A stretch of DNA of 20,490 nt from IMG/VR virus record IMGVR_UViG_3300030019_000162, positions 1 through 20,490 of that record; one strand, 5' to 3'. Below the pieces are notes generated by a model, which did not search any database, was not told the origin of the DNA, and was given only the letters and a program-made list of their open reading frames with translations. A program made the position numbers and the translations under genes. Position 1 is the first letter of the stretch; each line of letters begins with the position of its first letter. Below are positions 2-18,930 of this stretch, one piece after another. This DNA comes from a virus.

Positions 2-355
2 GAAAAACAGAAAAAAATGTTATATAACAGAGGTGTTTCAAATAAAGGTAGAATAGTTAGTGAAGAAACAAGACAGAAATTATCCAACTCTTTAACAGGA
101 AGAATTTTTTCGAAGGAAACAATAGAAAAAATGAAGATTTCTAATAAAGGTAGAATAGTTAGTAAAGAAACAAAGAAAAAACAATCAGAAAAGAGGAAAG
201 GTGAATTAAATCCATCGTGTAAAATTAAAGATATAGAAATACAAAAAATAATAGATATGATTAATAATGGTGAAACAATTAAAGAAATATCCAAAAAATA
301 TAATGTTTGCACTGCTACCATTAGAAATATTAAAAATGGTAAAAGAAAAATATAA
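2..355 (+). CDS. C-terminal part of a NUMOD3-type homing endonuclease-like protein (5' end outside window)
   Basis: The reading frame is open from the first bases of the window, so the ATG at 17 is probably internal and the gene starts upstream. What is visible is DNA-binding material: NUMOD3-like repeats of the form NKGR-x-x-S-x-E-T near residues 9-45 and again about 34 residues later, then a basic linker and a helix-turn-helix of about 35 residues at the C-terminus (ISKKYNVCTATIRNIKNGKR). In known families these modules follow a GIY-YIG or HNH nuclease domain and recognise the insertion site of a selfish homing gene; no catalytic domain is inside the window. It is followed by about 60 bases carrying the rtcB promoter. 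A stand-alone DNA-binding remnant is the alternative. Confidence 0.7.
   Translation, partial: EKQKKMLYNRGVSNKGRIVSEETRQKLSNSLTGRIFSKETIEKMKISNKGRIVSKETKKKQSEKRKGELNPSCKIKDIEIQKIIDMINNGETIKEISKKYNVCTATIRNIKNGKRKI
38..172 (+). repeat. Near-identical 33-bp direct repeat within the NUMOD3 region
   Basis: Bases 38-70 and 140-172 match at 31 of 33 positions and lie 102 bases apart, exactly 34 codons, so the reading frame is kept. The repeat encodes the NKGRIVS-x-ET core of the NUMOD3 motif. Near identity at the DNA level points to a recent internal duplication of one DNA-binding module. Confidence 0.8.
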
Positions 356-3294: not shown

Positions 3295-3326
3295 TTTGGT
3301 ATTATGGAAAATTTGTATTACCTTTG
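3295..3326 (+). promoter_or_regulatory. Bacteroidota-type promoter of the peptidase-ASCH-HD operon
   Basis: TTTG at 3295-3298, a 20-base spacer, TACCTTTG at 3319-3326; start codon 21 bases downstream at 3348. Geometry is identical to the promoter at 361, including the AATAATTTGGTA around the upstream element. Confidence 0.75.
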
Positions 3327-3347
3327 TGGGTAAATAAATAATAAAAT

Positions 3348-4589
3348 ATGAATAATAAAGATATTAAACAATTGTGGAATAATTTAACTGATTATGCACA
3401 TACATACGGACAAGAAGATGAAGTCATTGATATTATCAATGACTTTATTAATATTCCCTTTACACGTGATGAATATGGTAATTATTTTGTTAAGGTTGGT
3501 GATAGTAAAACATTGTTTGTAACACACTTAGATAATGCAGTTAAGCAAAAACTTCATGTAACAAAAGTAGAATACCAAAAAGATGGTCATGATTTTGTTA
3601 AAACGGATGGTTTTACTATTTTAGGTGCTGATGATAAAACAGGAATTGTTATGATGATTAATATGATTGATAATAATATACCTGGTATGTATTATTTTTT
3701 CATTGGTGAAGAAGTAGGACTTGTTGGTTCTTTACTTTATTATAAAGAAAAACCAGAATTTTTTGAAAATTACGAAAGATGTATTGCATTTGATAGAAAA
3801 GGTTACGGTTCAATTATTAACCGTATGAAGGGAAGATATTGTTGTTCTAATGCTTTTGTTGGTGCTTTATCAGGTGAATTTGCTAAGACTGGTATGAAAT
3901 TTTCTGCTGACCCTTATGGTGTTGGTACAGATTCTGCATCATTTATGAACATTATACCTGAATGTGCTAATCTTTCAGTTGGGTATTTTAATGAACATTC
4001 ATATAAAGAAGAACAAAATATTGATTATATGCTTGAAATGTGTGATGCATTGATAGATATTGATTGGGAAGATTTACCAACGGTTCGTATTCCTAAAAAT
4101 TGGGATACAAGAAAACCAGAAGCTACTGTTTCACAAGAAACAGATTTACCGTTATATAAATTACAAAATATATTTTCTGATATATGTGGTTTGTTTCGTA
4201 GTAAACTGAAAGCATATTCTTCTGCACATAGTTTATTTGAAGCAGGAAAGCAAATGCGTTTTTATCAAGTTCAAGACCTTGACAAACTGAATAACTTTAA
4301 TGTATGGTTATATAAGGATGGTTCTGTAAAAGTAAAAAAAGGAACTAAAGTTGTTAAGTTTGAAAATTACGAAGAATTATTTAAATTATTAAATAAAAAT
4401 AATAAAAAAGTTCGTAAAGTATTTGATATTGTTAAATTACCTGCTGAAATAGAAGCGGATGAAAAACGGGAAAAATTAAAAAAAGAAGTTCAAGCTAACG
4501 CTAAAGAAGAAGTTGAAAAAAATTTAGAAAAGGATGTAATTATAAAAGAACGTGTTATATCATCATTTTTAAAATTCAAAAAGAAATAA
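3348..4589 (+). CDS. M20/M28/M42-like zinc metallopeptidase, paralogue 1
   Basis: Residues 1-240 resemble the co-catalytic di-zinc aminopeptidases of clan MH. The expected ligands are in order: THLD (H60, D62), GADDKTG (D95), GEEVG (catalytic E121 and ligand E122), AFDRKGYG (D149) and FNEHSYKEE (H217). DPYGVGTDSASF (188-199) is a further conserved block. Residues about 266-345 form a second domain that recurs in paralogues 2 and 3, and the last 70 residues are a Lys/Glu-rich, probably coiled-coil tail. The adjacent CC pair at 165-166 is conserved in all three copies. It is the first gene of a four-gene operon, six bases before the next. No signal peptide is visible, so it should act in the cytoplasm or be packaged. 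Substrate unknown; the ligand set predicts a peptidase or related amidohydrolase. Confidence 0.8.
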   Translation: MNNKDIKQLWNNLTDYAHTYGQEDEVIDIINDFINIPFTRDEYGNYFVKVGDSKTLFVTHLDNAVKQKLHVTKVEYQKDGHDFVKTDGFTILGADDKTGIVMMINMIDNNIPGMYYFFIGEEVGLVGSLLYYKEKPEFFENYERCIAFDRKGYGSIINRMKGRYCCSNAFVGALSGEFAKTGMKFSADPYGVGTDSASFMNIIPECANLSVGYFNEHSYKEEQNIDYMLEMCDALIDIDWEDLPTVRIPKNWDTRKPEATVSQETDLPLYKLQNIFSDICGLFRSKLKAYSSAHSLFEAGKQMRFYQVQDLDKLNNFNVWLYKDGSVKVKKGTKVVKFENYEELFKLLNKNNKKVRKVFDIVKLPAEIEADEKREKLKKEVQANAKEEVEKNLEKDVIIKERVISSFLKFKKK

Positions 4590-4595
4590 AAAGAT

Positions 4596-4985
4596 ATGTA
4601 TACTTTTTTATATGATAAAGAAGAAGAATCTATTTTCAGGGAAGAAAATAAAGATAATTCAGAAATGTTACCAAAATATAAAATTGGTGATATTGTAATA
4701 TTATCAAGAGATGCAATTGAAATACATGAAGAATATTATGGTCATAGGGTTGAAGATTTTGTAAAGATAGAAATGGAAAACTGTATAAATAAAAAAATTC
4801 CTATAAAAATAATTAAAATAGCTATAAAAAATTCTAATAAAAAGAAGTATTATGCATTTGCTGAATTAACCGGATATATATCTGAACCATGTCTTGATAA
4901 TGGGTTTCATGTAAAATATATGATTAAAAATAAATTAGTATATGAACATTTAAAAACATTTAAAGAATATAAAAATAATTTATAA
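4596..4985 (+). CDS. Small hypothetical protein between the peptidase paralogues
   Basis: Not recognised. The 129-residue protein has an acidic N-terminus (EEESIFREENKDN), then PKYKIGDIVILSRDAIEIH (26-44), a pattern typical of a small beta-barrel (SH3-like) entry strand, followed by alternating basic strands (IPIKIIKIAIKN) and AFAELTGYISEPC. No catalytic motif or membrane segment is seen. It starts six bases after peptidase 1 and ends one base before peptidase 2, so it is clearly co-translated with them and may be an accessory subunit. It could equally be a later insertion into a tandem peptidase duplication. Confidence 0.6.
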   Translation: MYTFLYDKEEESIFREENKDNSEMLPKYKIGDIVILSRDAIEIHEEYYGHRVEDFVKIEMENCINKKIPIKIIKIAIKNSNKKKYYAFAELTGYISEPCLDNGFHVKYMIKNKLVYEHLKTFKEYKNNL

Positions 4986-4986
4986 T

Positions 4987-6420
4987 ATGAATCCAACAAT
5001 AATAAAACAAATTTGGAATGAATTAACAGATTTTACATACATCTATGGTATGGAAGATGAAGTGATTGAAGTTATTAAAAAAAATATTTCTATACCATTT
5101 ACACGTGACGAATATGGTAATTATTTTGTTAAAGTTGGTGATAGTAAATCATTATTTGTTAGTCATTTAGATGTAGTGTCTAAGCAAAAATTAAAAATTA
5201 ATAAAATATCATATCAAAAGGAAGAACATGAATTTGTTAAGACTGATGGATTTACTATTTTAGGTGCAGATGATAAAACAGGTGTTGTTATTATGTTAAA
5301 CATGATTGATAACAATGTTTCGGGTACTTATTACTTTATGATAGGTGAAGAAGTAGGTACGGTGGGTTCTGGACTACTTTATAAAGAAAAAGGTGAATTA
5401 CTATCAACCTTTGATAGATGTGTCGCATTTGACCGCAAATCATACGGTTCTATTATCAATAGACAGATGGGTGAATATTGTTGTTCAGATGAATTTGTTA
5501 ATTCTTTAGTTAATGAATTTAGTAATAATGGAATGGAATTTAAAGCAGACCCTTATGGTGTTTGGACTGATTCAGCATTATTTATGGGTACTATTCCAGA
5601 ATGTACTAATCTTTCAGTTGGATATTTTAATGAACATCATTACGAAGAAGAACAAGATATTACTTATATGTTACAATTAGCAGACGTTGTAACTAAGATT
5701 AATTGGGAAAGTTTACCAACAGTACGAATTAAAAAATCATTTGATACCGAAGAACCAAATGAAAATACTGTAATAGAAGGTGAACGTTTACCTATTTATA
5801 AGCTACAAACAATATTCGATGAAATTGATGATTTGATTTATGATTCAACTGGTTTATTTTCATCTAATACAAATTTTTTCAAACCGAATAAAGAAATGAA
5901 ATTTTTTAAAGTGAAAGATTTAAAAGGTAGTAGTAATTTTTCATTATGGTTAAAGTGGGATGGTAGTATTAAAATTAAAAAAGGTGATTTAGTATTAGAT
6001 TATGATAATTTTGATGATCTTGAAGAAGATTTAGAATATGATGATGAAAGTATGTTATTAGATATTCTAAAAGAAAATAAACTATTTAAATTTAATCAGT
6101 TTATAAAAGAAGGTCTTCAACATGATTTTGGTAAGATATTACATCTTACTTTTAAAGGTAAGGATTGGTTTGAAATGATTAAGAATGGTATAAAGAAAGA
6201 AGAGTATCGTACAATTAAACCATATTGGGAATCAAGATTAGATGGTAAGAAATTTGATACTGTTAAATTACAAATGGGTCGAAGAAGTAATTCACCTGCA
6301 ATGTATATAAAATGTGAAGGAATTGAAAAAGGTGGTGTGGGTAAGCAAGAATGGGGTTGGGTAGAACCTTGTTATAAAATAAAATTAGGTGAAGTACTTA
6401 AAATAGAAAATTATGAATAA
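4987..6420 (+). CDS. M20/M28/M42-like metallopeptidase (paralogue 2) fused to an ASCH domain
   Basis: Residues 1-240 align with paralogue 1 without gaps; the ligand residues fall at the same positions (H60, D62, D95, E121/E122, D149, H217), as does the CC pair at 165-166. The second conserved domain spans about 268-350. A linker with KFNQFIKEG (368-376) leads into a C-terminal ASCH-like domain (about 383-474): HLTFKGKDWFEMIKNG, KKEEYRTIKPYWESRL, and the closing YKIKLGEVLKIE. ASCH domains bind RNA or modified nucleosides; the YqfB member hydrolyses N4-acetylcytidine. The EYR-x-x-KPYW pattern is common to stand-alone phage ASCH proteins. Fusion of this peptidase to ASCH is unusual. The gene starts one base after its neighbour and overlaps the HD gene by eight bases, so the products are probably made together. 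Confidence 0.8.
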   Translation: MNPTIIKQIWNELTDFTYIYGMEDEVIEVIKKNISIPFTRDEYGNYFVKVGDSKSLFVSHLDVVSKQKLKINKISYQKEEHEFVKTDGFTILGADDKTGVVIMLNMIDNNVSGTYYFMIGEEVGTVGSGLLYKEKGELLSTFDRCVAFDRKSYGSIINRQMGEYCCSDEFVNSLVNEFSNNGMEFKADPYGVWTDSALFMGTIPECTNLSVGYFNEHHYEEEQDITYMLQLADVVTKINWESLPTVRIKKSFDTEEPNENTVIEGERLPIYKLQTIFDEIDDLIYDSTGLFSSNTNFFKPNKEMKFFKVKDLKGSSNFSLWLKWDGSIKIKKGDLVLDYDNFDDLEEDLEYDDESMLLDILKENKLFKFNQFIKEGLQHDFGKILHLTFKGKDWFEMIKNGIKKEEYRTIKPYWESRLDGKKFDTVKLQMGRRSNSPAMYIKCEGIEKGGVGKQEWGWVEPCYKIKLGEVLKIENYE

Positions 6421-7240
6421 AAAAATTAAAAAATTCTTACAATTTATAAAAGAAAATACATCCGTTGATTTTTTTGGTGTGTTATATGAAAAAGCACCTA
6501 AAAAATTAAGAGAACTAATTGATTCAACAAAAGGTGTTGAACAAAACCCAACATGGCACAGCGAAGGAGATGTATACACACATATTAGATTAGTGACAAA
6601 TAGATTATGTAATGCATATCCAAATGATAAGAATTTACTTTTAGCAGGATTCTTTCACGATTTAGGTAAAGTTGAAACAACTGAATGGAATGAAGAAAAA
6701 CAATCATGGACTGCACGTGGACATGAAGATGTATCTGTAATTATTGTAGATGAATATAAATCATGGATTGAAGATATGGGTGGTGATTTTGATGCAGTCA
6801 AAGAAATAGTAGCTAATCATATGCGTATTAAATATTTAGAAGAAATGAGAACGCAAGCTAAAATTGAATTAGTAAAAAATCCCTACTTCGAAGAAATACT
6901 TAAATTTAATACTGCTGATTGTGGTGGTACGAGTTTAGAATGTAAACCGTTATTAGATATATCTAATATTGAAAATGAAATGTCTGAATTTAAAAAGAAA
7001 GAAGAAGAAAAGAAAATAATGAATAGTAAATTCAATGGTGATATTATTATGCAAAGTTATCCGCATTTAACAGGAATATATTTAGGTAATGCTATAAGTA
7101 ATTTCAAAAAATATATTATTGATGAATTTAATATTGATTTTAAAGAATATGTGTTAAAAAATAGTAAAGAATCCATATTTACATACTTTGATAAATTCAT
7201 AAATGACAAATATGGTGATATTACTGATATTGTTTCATAA
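6413..7240 (+). CDS. HD-domain phosphohydrolase resembling the back half of a CCA-adding enzyme
   Basis: The HD metal site is complete: H57 (after WHSEGDVYTH), HD at 82-83 in FFHDLGK, H104 in ARGHED, H136 in ANHMR and D169 in TADCGG. After the HD region, FNGDIIMQSYPHLTGIYLG (207-225) resembles the G-x-DLM ... G-x-x-x-G segment found after the HD domain of bacterial tRNA nucleotidyltransferases. The nucleotidyltransferase head itself is absent. In the E. coli CCA enzyme the HD domain removes 2',3'-cyclic phosphate and 2'-phosphate, so RNA-end trimming is a reasonable guess here; nucleotide hydrolysis is the alternative. The N-terminus reads KKFLQFIKENTSVDFF, a possible capsid-targeting-like segment. 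Its ATG lies inside the end of the peptidase-ASCH gene (ATGAATAA overlap), which suggests translational coupling. The operon ends just after it. Confidence 0.8.
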   Translation: MNKKIKKFLQFIKENTSVDFFGVLYEKAPKKLRELIDSTKGVEQNPTWHSEGDVYTHIRLVTNRLCNAYPNDKNLLLAGFFHDLGKVETTEWNEEKQSWTARGHEDVSVIIVDEYKSWIEDMGGDFDAVKEIVANHMRIKYLEEMRTQAKIELVKNPYFEEILKFNTADCGGTSLECKPLLDISNIENEMSEFKKKEEEKKIMNSKFNGDIIMQSYPHLTGIYLGNAISNFKKYIIDEFNIDFKEYVLKNSKESIFTYFDKFINDKYGDITDIVS

Positions 7241-7266
7241 AAAGTTGGAAATACCAACTTTTTTTT
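7239..7266 (+). terminator. Terminator of the peptidase-ASCH-HD operon
   Basis: AAAAAGTTGG (7239-7248) pairs with CCAACTTTTT (7254-7263) around a five-base loop, followed by more T. The stem begins inside the HD gene's TAA stop. The same bases also contain the upstream element of the next promoter. Confidence 0.85.
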
Positions 7267-7275
7267 GTATCTTTG
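7244..7275 (+). promoter_or_regulatory. Bacteroidota-type promoter nested in the preceding terminator
   Basis: GTTG at 7244-7247 (TTG core match), a 20-base spacer, TATCTTTG at 7268-7275. The spacing equals that of the promoters at 361 and 3295. The start codon of the next gene follows 22 bases later. Confidence 0.65.
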
Positions 7276-7297: not shown

Positions 7298-7789
7298 ATG
7301 TACAAAAACCTTTTAACAACATCTTATACAAAATATATTCATAAAATGTTTAACATATCATTCAAAAAAGAATGGTTCGAAACATATTGGGCATTTGATT
7401 TACACGGTACAATAATGAAACCAAGTTATGATTTAAATGATAAGAGTGTAGAATTTTATCCATATGCAAAAGAAGTTTTACAAATACTTACCAATAGAGA
7501 TGATGTCAAGTTAATTATGTGGACATCATCATATGAAAATGAAATAGAACATTATAATACTATTCTTTATGATAATGGAATAATTTTTGACAAAGTAAAT
7601 GAAAACCCAAATATTTCATCTAATAATGGTAATTTTGGGTTTTATGAAAAGAAATTTTACTTCAATATATTATTTGATGATAAAGCAACGTTTGACCCTG
7701 AAACAGATTGGGAACCAATTTTTAATTTATTAAATGCATATCAAGAAGATGGATTTTTACCAAATCCAAAATGGACAACAAAATATTAA
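7298..7789 (+). CDS. HAD-superfamily hydrolase-like protein with a D-x-H-x-T motif I
   Basis: The 163-residue protein shows the HAD landmarks: motif I AFDLHGTI (nucleophile D34, H36 and T38), motif II MWTSS (75-79), a Lys-rich motif III (EKKF, 117-120) and motif IV LFDDK (125-129). HAD phosphatases normally have D-x-D-x-T in motif I; here the second Asp, the usual acid/base, is His. Such D-x-H variants occur in small phage proteins; the activity may be altered or the target may be unusual. There is no cap domain. FNISFKKEWF near residues 18-27 precedes the fold. It is the first gene of the third host-promoter unit, 27 bases before peptidase 3, with no terminator between. Likely a phosphatase on a nucleotide, nucleic-acid end or sugar phosphate, not resolvable from sequence. 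Confidence 0.7.
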   Translation: MYKNLLTTSYTKYIHKMFNISFKKEWFETYWAFDLHGTIMKPSYDLNDKSVEFYPYAKEVLQILTNRDDVKLIMWTSSYENEIEHYNTILYDNGIIFDKVNENPNISSNNGNFGFYEKKFYFNILFDDKATFDPETDWEPIFNLLNAYQEDGFLPNPKWTTKY

Positions 7790-9872: not shown

Positions 9873-9907
9873 AAAAAAGGATTGATAAATTATCAATCCT
9901 TTTTTTT
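9873..9907. terminator. Bidirectional terminator between convergent genes
   Basis: AAAAAAGGATTGATAA pairs with TTATCAATCCTTTTTT almost without a loop; A and T runs on both sides let it work in both directions. It separates peptidase 3 (+) from the UVR-motif gene (-). Confidence 0.85.
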
Positions 9908-10478
9908 ATTCTGTTATTTTTTTAAGTCGTTCTTTTGTTTCATTTATTTTATCTCGATATATAATTGCATTATCATAATCTTCTATTTTAATAACTTCTT
10001 TCAATTCATTACTTAAAATATCAATTTTTATATTATTATAAGACTTATTCATTGATTTGAAATTTAAAAGGATAAAAACTAATGACCTTTTAAAATTTGT
10101 AATTATTTCATTTATAAATTCTTCCTTATCATCCAAATAACTAATTATTTGTTCATTAATTTGTGGGTCAACCAATGTTGAAAGTTCATCTAATTTTTTA
10201 TACATTATATATGTTTCTTCAATCATCAAATGCAATAATTCGTTTGGTATTATATTTATTTTCTTTTCAATACCATCTTCAACATCAACTAAGTAAACAA
10301 TTCTATTTAATTCATCATTACCATTAAATTTTTCATCATACCCACTCATTAACATATTAAACATTAAGTAAGTTAAAAATGGATTATTCTTTTCTAAAAT
10401 TTGTCCATTTAACCCCATCAACATAATATAAGAAACCGATAATTTATTTATATTTTTTATATTTTCCTTGTCCTTCAT
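9906..10478 (-). CDS. UVR-motif protein of unknown function
   Basis: The last 35 residues (155-189) match the UVR motif: LSNELKEVIKIEDYDNA then IIYRDKINETKERL, i.e. L-x-x-A/V-I-x-x-EDY-x-x-A-x-x-xRD-x-I. In UvrB and UvrC this helical hairpin mediates their contact; in ClpC-type and McsA-like proteins it serves as a protein interaction module. The first 150 residues are helical, with hydrophobic stretches (LSVSYIMLMGLNG; FLTYLMFNMLMSG; RSLVFILLNF) but no clear membrane span, and are not recognised. It is transcribed toward the peptidase genes, sharing their terminator, and diverges from the sheath gene across a 209-base A/T leader. It may be a regulator or adaptor (inference). Confidence 0.6.
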   Translation of the reverse strand: MKDKENIKNINKLSVSYIMLMGLNGQILEKNNPFLTYLMFNMLMSGYDEKFNGNDELNRIVYLVDVEDGIEKKINIIPNELLHLMIEETYIMYKKLDELSTLVDPQINEQIISYLDDKEEFINEIITNFKRSLVFILLNFKSMNKSYNNIKIDILSNELKEVIKIEDYDNAIIYRDKINETKERLKKITE

Positions 10479-14164: not shown

Positions 14165-14195
14165 AAAAAACCACTTCAAAAGAGTGGTTTTTTTT
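14165..14195. terminator. Bidirectional terminator between sheath and fibre-like genes
   Basis: AAAAAACCACT (14165-14175) pairs with AGTGGTTTTTT (14183-14193) around a seven-base loop. It stops transcription from both convergent genes; the fibre gene's stop codon overlaps its right edge. Confidence 0.85.
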
Positions 14196-15669
14196 ATAAT
14201 AATATAGATAAATATATGAAAAATATTGAATCATCAGATTCTAAATGATATGATGCGGTATTTTCATTCCAAAATAACAAATCCCCTATATCTACATTAT
14301 TTAATGATTTTGCTGTTATTCCATTATCACTTGAAAAGTAACAGTCATATATTTTTACACCATCACCGAGATTTACAGGAACACCATTAACTTCAACCCT
14401 AACTAATGTTAAAGGTTTATTTAAAATAGGTATACTTGTTGCTAAATGAATATTTGTTCCCGTCATAGCAGACATATTAAAATTCCCTTTTACATAATCT
14501 AAAGATTCTATCTTATTATTTATAGTACTTAATGCATCTTGTACATTAGTAGAATCTAAATTAATTGCATCTGAATTATCATAACTAATATTTACAGCAG
14601 TATTTGATACAGAACCAGCAGAAACTGATATTGACTTTATTTGTATAATTTTACATTGTGTACTATCTGATAAATTAGTTGCGTTATTTTTAACTATTAA
14701 AAAACATAATGGTACAGACGTAATCAAAATTTCATTAGGAATATTAATACCTAATAGTTGTAAATCACTTTCAGCAGATGTTATATCTTTATATTCAGTG
14801 TGTTGTGTTGGGTATATTAAAAATAATATATCATCACTTAAACAAGACCTACATAATATTCTTAACGTATAATTATTATTTGTTGTAACTTGTAAATTAG
14901 TTGTACCATTGGACCAATGATTAGTATCTATTGAATCATAATTATTAGCATCACCACCGTAAATCCATGTAGAACCATTATAATATGATGTAAAAAACTT
15001 TATATGTGTTTTTGAAATAAGTGTTTTTTGGTTAGGATATCTTAAATCATATTTTGAATTTATTGAATATCCTACAACATCACCACCACTTACATCTAAA
15101 AAAGAATTTGAATCAGTCGGTGTGACAATATTACCACTAATTACCTTTGGTCCTTCATTTATATGAATATCAATTATTGATGGTAAATCCCTACTAAAAA
15201 TAGGTTTAAATAAAGAATCACTATATAACTTTCTATTACTTGGTTTAATTAATAACTGACCTAATACGACATAACTATTTCTTTGTTCTACTGTAAATTT
15301 AGATAATTGTTGAATTATATTACTATTATTATCAATAGCAATATAAATAAAAAGTTCTGTTAAACCAAAACTTATAATAGATATATTTAATTTATCAGTC
15401 CAAATTAATTGAATTATTGATTTGGTTATTGGGTTAACAAAATTACCAATACCTGCTAATATATTAAAAGTATTATCATCAATAATTTGTATAAGACCAC
15501 CTGTATATAGACCAGTACCTAAAGCATAATTAACAGATGTTTCATTTATGAATTTTAAATTTACCGCATCATTACTATCAATCGGTGAATCAACATTTAT
15601 TAATCTATTATTATTTATATCAAAATCCGATATAATTTCAAGTTGCTTATTTTTAATTTTTGTTATCAT
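14194..15669 (-). CDS. Tail fibre-like protein on the opposite strand
   Basis: The N-terminus (DFDINNNRLINVDSPIDSND then AVNLKFIN) is the repeat-like pattern common in phage tail fibres and baseplate-attached receptor-binding proteins: D-x-N-x-x-R-I-x-N, then DAVNL-x-x-x-N. The body is beta-rich and Ser/Asn/Thr-rich with two Cys close together (LCRSCLSDD), and near 370-395 there is another fibre-type segment (AINLDSTNVQDALSTINNKI). The C-terminus (GDLLFWNENTASYHLESDDS followed by a short hydrophobic strand) looks like a terminal beta domain. The host receptor cannot be predicted. It lies inverted between the sheath and tube genes, which are normally adjacent, so it is probably an insertion relative to the T4-type order. 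It diverges from the tube gene across a 202-base leader with a mirrored element. Confidence 0.65.
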   Translation of the reverse strand: MITKIKNKQLEIISDFDINNNRLINVDSPIDSNDAVNLKFINETSVNYALGTGLYTGGLIQIIDDNTFNILAGIGNFVNPITKSIIQLIWTDKLNISIISFGLTELFIYIAIDNNSNIIQQLSKFTVEQRNSYVVLGQLLIKPSNRKLYSDSLFKPIFSRDLPSIIDIHINEGPKVISGNIVTPTDSNSFLDVSGGDVVGYSINSKYDLRYPNQKTLISKTHIKFFTSYYNGSTWIYGGDANNYDSIDTNHWSNGTTNLQVTTNNNYTLRILCRSCLSDDILFLIYPTQHTEYKDITSAESDLQLLGINIPNEILITSVPLCFLIVKNNATNLSDSTQCKIIQIKSISVSAGSVSNTAVNISYDNSDAINLDSTNVQDALSTINNKIESLDYVKGNFNMSAMTGTNIHLATSIPILNKPLTLVRVEVNGVPVNLGDGVKIYDCYFSSDNGITAKSLNNVDIGDLLFWNENTASYHLESDDSIFFIYLSILL

Positions 15670-18048: not shown

Positions 18049-18930
18049 ATGAGCAAGATTATACATTTTTTTGATTTAGATAATACATTATGGAAAGTAG
18101 AACTAAAAGCGTGGATTATATTAAAGAATAAACCTAATAACCCATTAATAAAACTAAACAAAATTCAAATAAAAGATATTTTAAATGGTGTTTATAAGAA
18201 AGAAGAAAATCTTATAGAATTTAATGGTAATACATTTTGGATTAGTGATAATATGTTTGATAAGATTAAAAAGAAGTATCCAAAAATAGAATTAACCGAT
18301 TTAGGTGTGTCTTTTATTGAATATACTAACCCAGACTATTATTTAAATTTAAACATATTTAAAGAAAATATTAGACATCTGATTGGTGAAAAGGGTGTTG
18401 AAATTGGTATTATATCAGCAAGATATGATGCTGATAAGGATAAAAACTTATTAGTATCATTAAAAGATGAATTAGCAAAAGATGGGTTAGAAATAACTAA
18501 ATTTTATTATGTTTCAAACTTTTTTGAAATGAGAACAAATGATAAGATTAATTATGAAAAAATGAAAATATTATTGGAACATTTAATTGGTTTCCATATT
18601 AAGGATAACCACTTTATCCCAATTAAACAAGATTTTTTTAAAGAAATACATTTTTATGATGATGAAATACAAAATATAAATGTAGCTAATGATGTTCAAT
18701 ATTATTTAGAAGAATATTTAAGAAATACAGAAGATGAATTATTTCACAAAATAATAGATAGAGTTAAAAATTATACACCTGTATTATACACTCACCTTAT
18801 TACTAATAATAATTTGAATAAATTTAAAACTACTGAAATAAAATTAGTAGAACCAATAAGATATTCAATTAAGGTTGATGAACATAAAACTTTTAAATTT
18901 AAAGATTTTATTAATAAAAATTATAAATAA
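18049..18930 (+). CDS. HAD-superfamily phosphatase-like protein
   Basis: The 293-residue protein begins with a canonical HAD motif I, FFDLDNTLW (nucleophile D9, acid/base D11, T13), and has motif II IISAR (about 122-126), a downstream Lys region and motif IV FYDDE (about 203-207). These identify a Mg-dependent phosphohydrolase fold with the catalytic residues intact, unlike the D-x-H protein at 7298. Residues about 20-80 form an inserted cap-like region. The C-terminal 60 residues are extra and end in KTFKFKDFINKNYK, an F-x-x-FI segment like those in several other proteins here. It sits between baseplate-type genes, suggesting virion association or late expression; the substrate is not predictable. 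It is eight bases before the next gene, so the two are probably co-transcribed. Confidence 0.75.
   Translation: MSKIIHFFDLDNTLWKVELKAWIILKNKPNNPLIKLNKIQIKDILNGVYKKEENLIEFNGNTFWISDNMFDKIKKKYPKIELTDLGVSFIEYTNPDYYLNLNIFKENIRHLIGEKGVEIGIISARYDADKDKNLLVSLKDELAKDGLEITKFYYVSNFFEMRTNDKINYEKMKILLEHLIGFHIKDNHFIPIKQDFFKEIHFYDDEIQNINVANDVQYYLEEYLRNTEDELFHKIIDRVKNYTPVLYTHLITNNNLNKFKTTEIKLVEPIRYSIKVDEHKTFKFKDFINKNYK

Follow-up and report, generated by a model that had tools for sequence, protein, structure and literature searches.

What could join two peptidases, a small orphan, an ASCH domain and an HD protein in a single viral transcription unit? The question is raised by IMG/VR virus record IMGVR_UViG_3300030019_000162, of which we analysed positions 1 to 20,490 (the window, by which we mean this whole 20.5-kb fragment). 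At positions 3295-7266 four genes lie head to tail on one strand: pepA, an orphan of 129 amino acids (aa), a pepB-ASCH fusion and an HD protein gene. The answer proposed here starts from what we predict to be a T4-type capsid-targeting sequence, [FYW]xx[FY][ILV]xE, present on the HD protein and on the ASCH module; a limited literature search found no description of such tags for this phage group. We see about an even chance that the operon is linked to the virion and belongs to a huge T4-like myophage, the HD protein being packaged, injected and active on RNA ends and the peptidases trimming short peptides. A sequence-only reading of the same DNA had offered a virion-packaged enzyme set as one of three possible roles, and the predicted tag speaks for that choice.

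A capsid-targeting-like tag on two proteins

The features that bear on the tag are the following:
4987-6420, + strand: pepB-ASCH fusion, whole open reading frame (ORF), 477 aa
4987-6060, + strand: pepB, the peptidase part, placed by an AlphaFold2 (AF2) model and its structural match to Peptidase T (PepT)
6085-6111, + strand: FKFNQFIKE, a capsid-targeting-like segment inside the fusion (pepB residues 367-375) that joins the peptidase to ASCH, placed by alignment with the N-terminus of the ASCH protein of contig L012
6112-6417, + strand: ASCH-like module of the fusion (phrog_625, 9.5e-18; GIKKEEYR)
6413-7240, + strand: HD protein, 275 aa, CCA-enzyme type HD domain and helical tail (Pfam HD 7.4e-9; phrog_2244, tRNA nucleotidyltransferase, 3e-5)
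6413-6454, + strand: N-terminal capsid-targeting-like tag of the HD protein, MNKKIKKFLQFIKE, with core F-L-Q-F-I-K-E and low model confidence

Two IMG/VR contigs, L005 (94 kb) and L012 (23 kb), are the nearest relatives of the window. Among these three phages the HD proteins differ in their first residues and have a core of identical type (KFLQFIKE/N in the window, KFIKYINE/G in L005 and KYTGFINE/N in L012, the slash marking the predicted cleavage point), and the same core is found in the L012 ASCH protein (KFTNFVNE/S) and in the window fusion (KFNQFIKE/G). The HD core equals the Y-Q-E-F-I-A-E of T4 internal protein IPIII position by position; our IPIII query matched X04567.1 at 100%, a record in which the leader MKTYQEFIAE is annotated as removed on maturation. 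In T4, residues 4 and 7 were shown by genetics to serve targeting and residues 8 and 10 to serve processing (PMC9026906), and the conserved positions of the tag are these four functional positions, the two aromatics being F8 and F11 of the HD protein and the hydrophobic-x-E processing site I12-K-E14. Capsid proteins of the relatives share this site type (I/M-x-E), as in SINE/NAYVN.

With peptidases excluded and families dereplicated, the core occurred at aa 4-15 in 16 of 970 families of related phages, against 1.2 in shuffled N-termini (maximum 6 of 500), while control patterns (rearranged cores, E to D, E to K) gave 0-2. The excess was significant in each of four sets, namely the window's clade, the megaphages, the peptidase loci and the HD loci, and among 543 families of ordinary phages there was no enrichment (1.0 versus 0.5). 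A looser first pattern, enriched just 1- to 3-fold and inflated by the peptidase motif YYFFIGE, was abandoned. As a tag-like segment at the other end of a protein, a HAD-like protein (window 18049-18930) ends in KTFKFKDFINKN.

The arrangement shares with the T4 IPIII/gp21 system the N-terminal position, the aromatic-x-x-aromatic-[ILV]-x-E core and the hydrophobic-x-E site also found on the capsid protein, and related phages have relatives of gp23 and, as weak matches, putative relatives of the S77 protease. It differs in that the predicted cargo is an HD phosphohydrolase and an ASCH protein rather than small basic proteins, and in that one copy lies inside a fusion. Since the HD protein carries this sequence, we predict that it is built into the prohead core, as the ancestral ASCH protein would have been; an S77-type prohead protease would then trim it after FIKE, and the trimmed protein would be injected together with the DNA and be active from the onset of infection. 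Packaging of the HD protein appears likely. For a reporter fusion the HD segment would be MNKKIKKFLQFIKEN and its L012 ASCH counterpart MKKFTNFVNES.

The ASCH module and its fusion

The ASCH fusion recognised in the sequence-only reading was upheld by the phrog_625 match and by the GxKxxExR motif, which we take to be the ASCH signature and which reads GIKKEEYR in the window, GEKKEEYR also being seen. The window protein had no Pfam match, and its stand-alone relative in L012 scored 14.7 bits, below the cut-off of 21.2; over the ASCH region the AF2 model reaches a predicted local distance difference test (pLDDT) score of only about 35. The fused module is 57% identical to the stand-alone L012 protein and 33-51% identical to those of ordinary phages. 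With the phrog_625 proteins it has GxKxxExR in common, and it differs from them by the peptidase fusion and the tag-like linker.

About 70 ASCH homologues in ordinary phages mostly begin right at the domain (MKILHLTLKKKWF) and the tag was found only on those of huge phages; because the ordinary-phage proteins begin without it, the tag is an add-on to ASCH. The fusion segment FKFNQFIKE aligns with the L012 N-terminus MKKFTNFVNE, with K368, F369, F372 and E375 conserved, so that a tag N-terminal in the L012 orthologue is internal in the window. Packaging of the fused ASCH may have been lost, save for a possible restart of translation at an in-frame ATG at 6052. In the proposed scheme ASCH would be an RNA- or nucleotide-binding partner.

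The HD protein

The similarity of the HD protein to CCA-adding enzymes spans their HD domain and helical tail, in agreement with its initial likening to the rear half of a CCA enzyme. Its ligands H57, H82, D83, H104, H136 and D169 are invariant in 23 homologues. The AF2 model has a pLDDT of 93 (51-65 over residues 1-20, above 90 thereafter) and matched the tRNA processing enzyme 3wfp/3wfo (Z 12.3, root-mean-square deviation (rmsd) 3.4-3.5, 142-144 residues), the top structural match being the di-iron HD oxygenase PhnZ (Z 13.9, rmsd 2.7, 132 residues). Because of the PhnZ match a redox role is a possible alternative; RNA-end hydrolysis is favoured because the HD domain is associated with a nucleotidyltransferase in other phages, where it is fused to a PolyA_pol head (L015) or adjoins one (L016). 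The L015 protein (1140-2777) is a permuted CCA enzyme, with the HD domain ahead of the nucleotidyltransferase head. Defence and counter-defence families were set aside, a PADLOC search having given weak generic Cas3-HD matches only.

According to Yakunin 2004, as cited in PMC10673834, the HD domain of the Escherichia coli CCA-adding enzyme has 2',3'-cyclic phosphodiesterase, 2'-nucleotidase and phosphatase activities. The phage protein shares the HD ligands and the HD-plus-tail similarity with that enzyme and differs from it by the gained head tag and by having no nucleotidyltransferase in or beside it, no such head being found in the 275 aa by family searches or in the AF2 model. From its family membership we predict an RNA-end role: a CCA-type HD protein without nucleotidyltransferase would remove 2',3'-cyclic phosphates and phosphates from RNA, the likeliest substrates being damaged tRNA 3' ends, in one pathway with the upstream-encoded RtcB ligase and with CCA nucleotidyltransferases encoded elsewhere in such phages.

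The same genes could form a kit for translation and RNA repair that is produced in infected cells and never packaged, the HD protein healing tRNA ends, ASCH binding RNA, the peptidases recycling peptides of stalled or cleaved peptidyl-tRNA, and the N-terminal motif serving another purpose. RNA repair sets are known in jumbo phages (PMC7824862). RtcB lies just upstream, HD occurs together with CCA nucleotidyltransferase in other phages, a peptide deformylase gene follows the HD gene in both relatives (L005:12551-13078 and L012:1835-2371; the window has none there), and an NFACT-R RNA-binding protein adjoins the peptidase in 50 of 77 IMG/VR loci. A kit of this kind fails, however, to explain why the motif matches the T4 capsid tag at every functional position and why a like cleavage site is found in the capsid protein, and we regard it as unlikely, though a serious contender.

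Three peptidases and the head genes

A third paralogue, pepC, lies just outside the operon, so that the two paralogous di-metal peptidases first proposed are indeed paralogous and have their metal ligands, and only their number has to be raised. All three belong to phrog_4191, and H60, D62, D95, E121/E122, D149 and H217 are invariant across them, which is the Peptidase T / M20B set of di-metal ligands with the catalytic base. The pepB model (catalytic core pLDDT about 95) matched Peptidase T (3gb0, 3rza; Z 26.4, rmsd 2.5-2.6, 232-234 residues) and TET1 of family M42 (2cf4; Z 23.6-23.9), in both cases over the catalytic core only. The phage peptidases have the catalytic fold and the di-metal ligands in common with Peptidase T and TET1 and lack the inserted lid or oligomerisation domain: model residues 1-243 cover 232-234 of 373 target residues, with the whole target spanned and the PepT lid insert absent. 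They have instead another small C-terminal domain at about residues 258-350.

The family comprises 267 relatives in IMG/VR and 374 phage records. A gp23-type capsid gene (PF07068, 2.5e-29) lies within four genes of the peptidase in 49 of the 77 IMG/VR loci, and a prohead (head maturation) protease does so in 45; with such neighbours in most loci, the peptidase belongs to the head cluster over much of its distribution. The NFACT-R protein (PF05670, 130 aa), often head-type tagged, is flanked by the gp23-type capsid gene and the peptidase (L107:5182-5574 and about 50 further IMG/VR peptidase loci; LR745206, 202511-202894), and 23 of the 39 different NFACT-R proteins bear a broad form of the tag core. 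The tag was rejected as a trait common to the peptidases themselves, being carried by just a few relatives. Both operon peptidases would be aminopeptidases of PepT/TET-like type without a lid, from a family found alongside the head genes of huge phages. Most likely they trim short peptides, either head-maturation propeptides, which would make them agents of peptide clearance in the head, or nascent-chain fragments, which would make them agents of recycling.

Such a setting also suits a head-maturation unit, in which the peptidases would digest prohead-protease propeptides so that the head can fill, with HD and ASCH as mere passengers. In about 50 contigs the peptidase is the second gene behind that for the major capsid protein, the NFACT-R/peptidase neighbourhood recurs in LR745206 and LR756502, and pepC is near the tail sheath gene. 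Yet L005 has two pep-HD pairs, the second divergent from the first, each with a one-base start/stop overlap (ATGA); that such pairs arose twice suggests a specific partnership, and small Klebsiella and Pectobacterium phages have the peptidase as well. We consider a pure head-maturation unit rather improbable.

Gene order in relatives and assembly of the unit

Tail sheath, tube and baseplate-type genes, assigned by sequence inspection without family match, lie 3' of the operon. In the phage collection the window comes closest to uncultured megaphages of 634-735 kb, LR756501-4 and LR745206; a 735-kb phage genome was reported in a huge-phage survey (PMC7162821). The host is probably a member of the Bacteroidota, judging from the promoter type alone.

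At neither pep-HD place does L005 have ASCH or the orphan, and in L012 a stand-alone ASCH gene overlaps HD, with no peptidase directly upstream. The orphan had no match in Pfam, PHROGs, NCBIfam, the PDB, phages or IMG/VR besides the same phage, and the megaphages have 4-8 peptidase copies each, their HD relative, where present, being located elsewhere. Because L005 and L012 keep different parts, the window unit must have been built from shared pieces by peptidase duplication, gain of the orphan and pepB-ASCH fusion. The idea of a fixed four-gene system was therefore not supported, L005 keeping pep-HD, L012 ASCH-HD and neither the full set. Scattering of the genes in related phages had been named beforehand as a refuting result, and it is half seen: partial pairs are kept and the full set is not.

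This leaves room for the view that there is no joint function, and that a recent tandem peptidase duplication, an orphan and a gene fusion came under one promoter by chance. The order is just partly kept in the two nearest relatives, the orphan is without relatives, and at least two nearby peptidase copies are common, being found in 11 of the 77 loci. Against chance, the overlapping pep-HD and ASCH-HD adjacencies were kept separately in two relatives, and we think an accidental grouping very improbable.

Several observations count against the virion-linked operon. In most phages the peptidase and HD genes are not linked, an N-terminal tag is missing from pepA, pepB and the orphan, and the six-ligand HD site is also compatible with HD di-iron oxygenases. 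The window has neither a capsid nor a prohead protease gene, and PF03420 (S77 protease) matches in four megaphages are weak and below the Pfam cut-off. T4 targeting sequences are not known to work internally, where the window ASCH tag lies, and we know of no virion proteome for these phages.

More tentatively, and with somewhat less confidence than an even chance, we suggest that T4-like tags serve as a common address label for many unrelated enzymes (among them CCA-type HD, ASCH and NFACT-R) in huge Bacteroidota-type phages, that the injected proteome could be read from sequence, and that MKIIITESQL does the same job in other phages. The N-terminal motif MKIIITESQLxxI was found in L014, L015, L037 and other HD loci, in 14 unrelated families against 0.6 expected, and is possibly another address tag. 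The injected protein set is known for few phages and is central to the disarming of the host. If the tag is a capsid address, the proteins injected by giant phages could be listed from sequence alone, RNA-end repair would be a pre-loaded function, and ordinary phage genes such as ASCH would become virion cargo by a gain of about 14 residues.

Operon boundaries and neighbouring genes

The remaining features of the operon and its 3' flank are:
3295-3326, + strand: promoter, Bacteroidota-type, TTTG-N20-TACCTTTG, ending 21 nt before the pepA ATG
3348-4589, + strand: pepA, PepT/TET-like metallopeptidase core and C-terminal domain without head tag, 413 aa (phrog_4191, 7.5e-67)
4596-4985, + strand: orphan protein, 129 aa, without relatives outside the same phage
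7239-7263, + strand: intrinsic terminator, AAAAAGTTGG-AAATA-CCAACTTTTT(T)
7298-7789, + strand: next unit, HAD-type phosphatase-like gene (NF046079, 2.2e-6), kept in L005 and L012
7817-9871, + strand: pepC, third peptidase paralogue (phrog_4191, 1.8e-70), near the tail sheath gene in the window, L005 and L012

The four same-strand ORFs (3348-7240) are separated by 6, 1 and -8 bases, and the bracketing of exactly these genes by a promoter and a strong terminator, as claimed in the sequence-only reading, was confirmed. The full promoter pattern occurs at two sites only in the window, each just 5' of a gene (RtcB at 420, pepA at 3348), with a pattern-to-start distance of 21 nt for pepA and 27 nt for RtcB. 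As the count alone is at chance level (2 observed versus 2.45 expected in this AT-rich window), the evidence for the promoter call is location. The terminator hairpin has -11.2 kcal/mol (z -3.2), and a fresh -7 box, TATCTTTG, at 7268-7275 serves the gene after it. The near-identical contig L004, from a separate metagenome, carries the same four genes, so that neither the arrangement nor the fusion is an assembly error. The operon is self-contained in this bracketed layout, and less so in content, with pepC 0.6 kb further on and relatives that keep parts only.

No tRNA genes were found in the window. RtcB was rejected as a fixed partner: neither the L005 nor the L012 contig has it, each being a fragment, and three of four megaphages lack it. 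Directly 5' of the window's RtcB gene lies the 3' end of a GIY-YIG/NUMOD-type homing endonuclease ORF (window 17-355; L004:985-1878). Between the sheath and tube genes is a 491-aa protein (14194-15669, - strand) that had no Pfam matches and is absent there in L012. A bidirectional terminator (9873-9905) parts pepC from a gene for a small UVR-motif-like protein (9906-10478, - strand), which lies between pepC and the sheath gene and is kept in L005 and L012.

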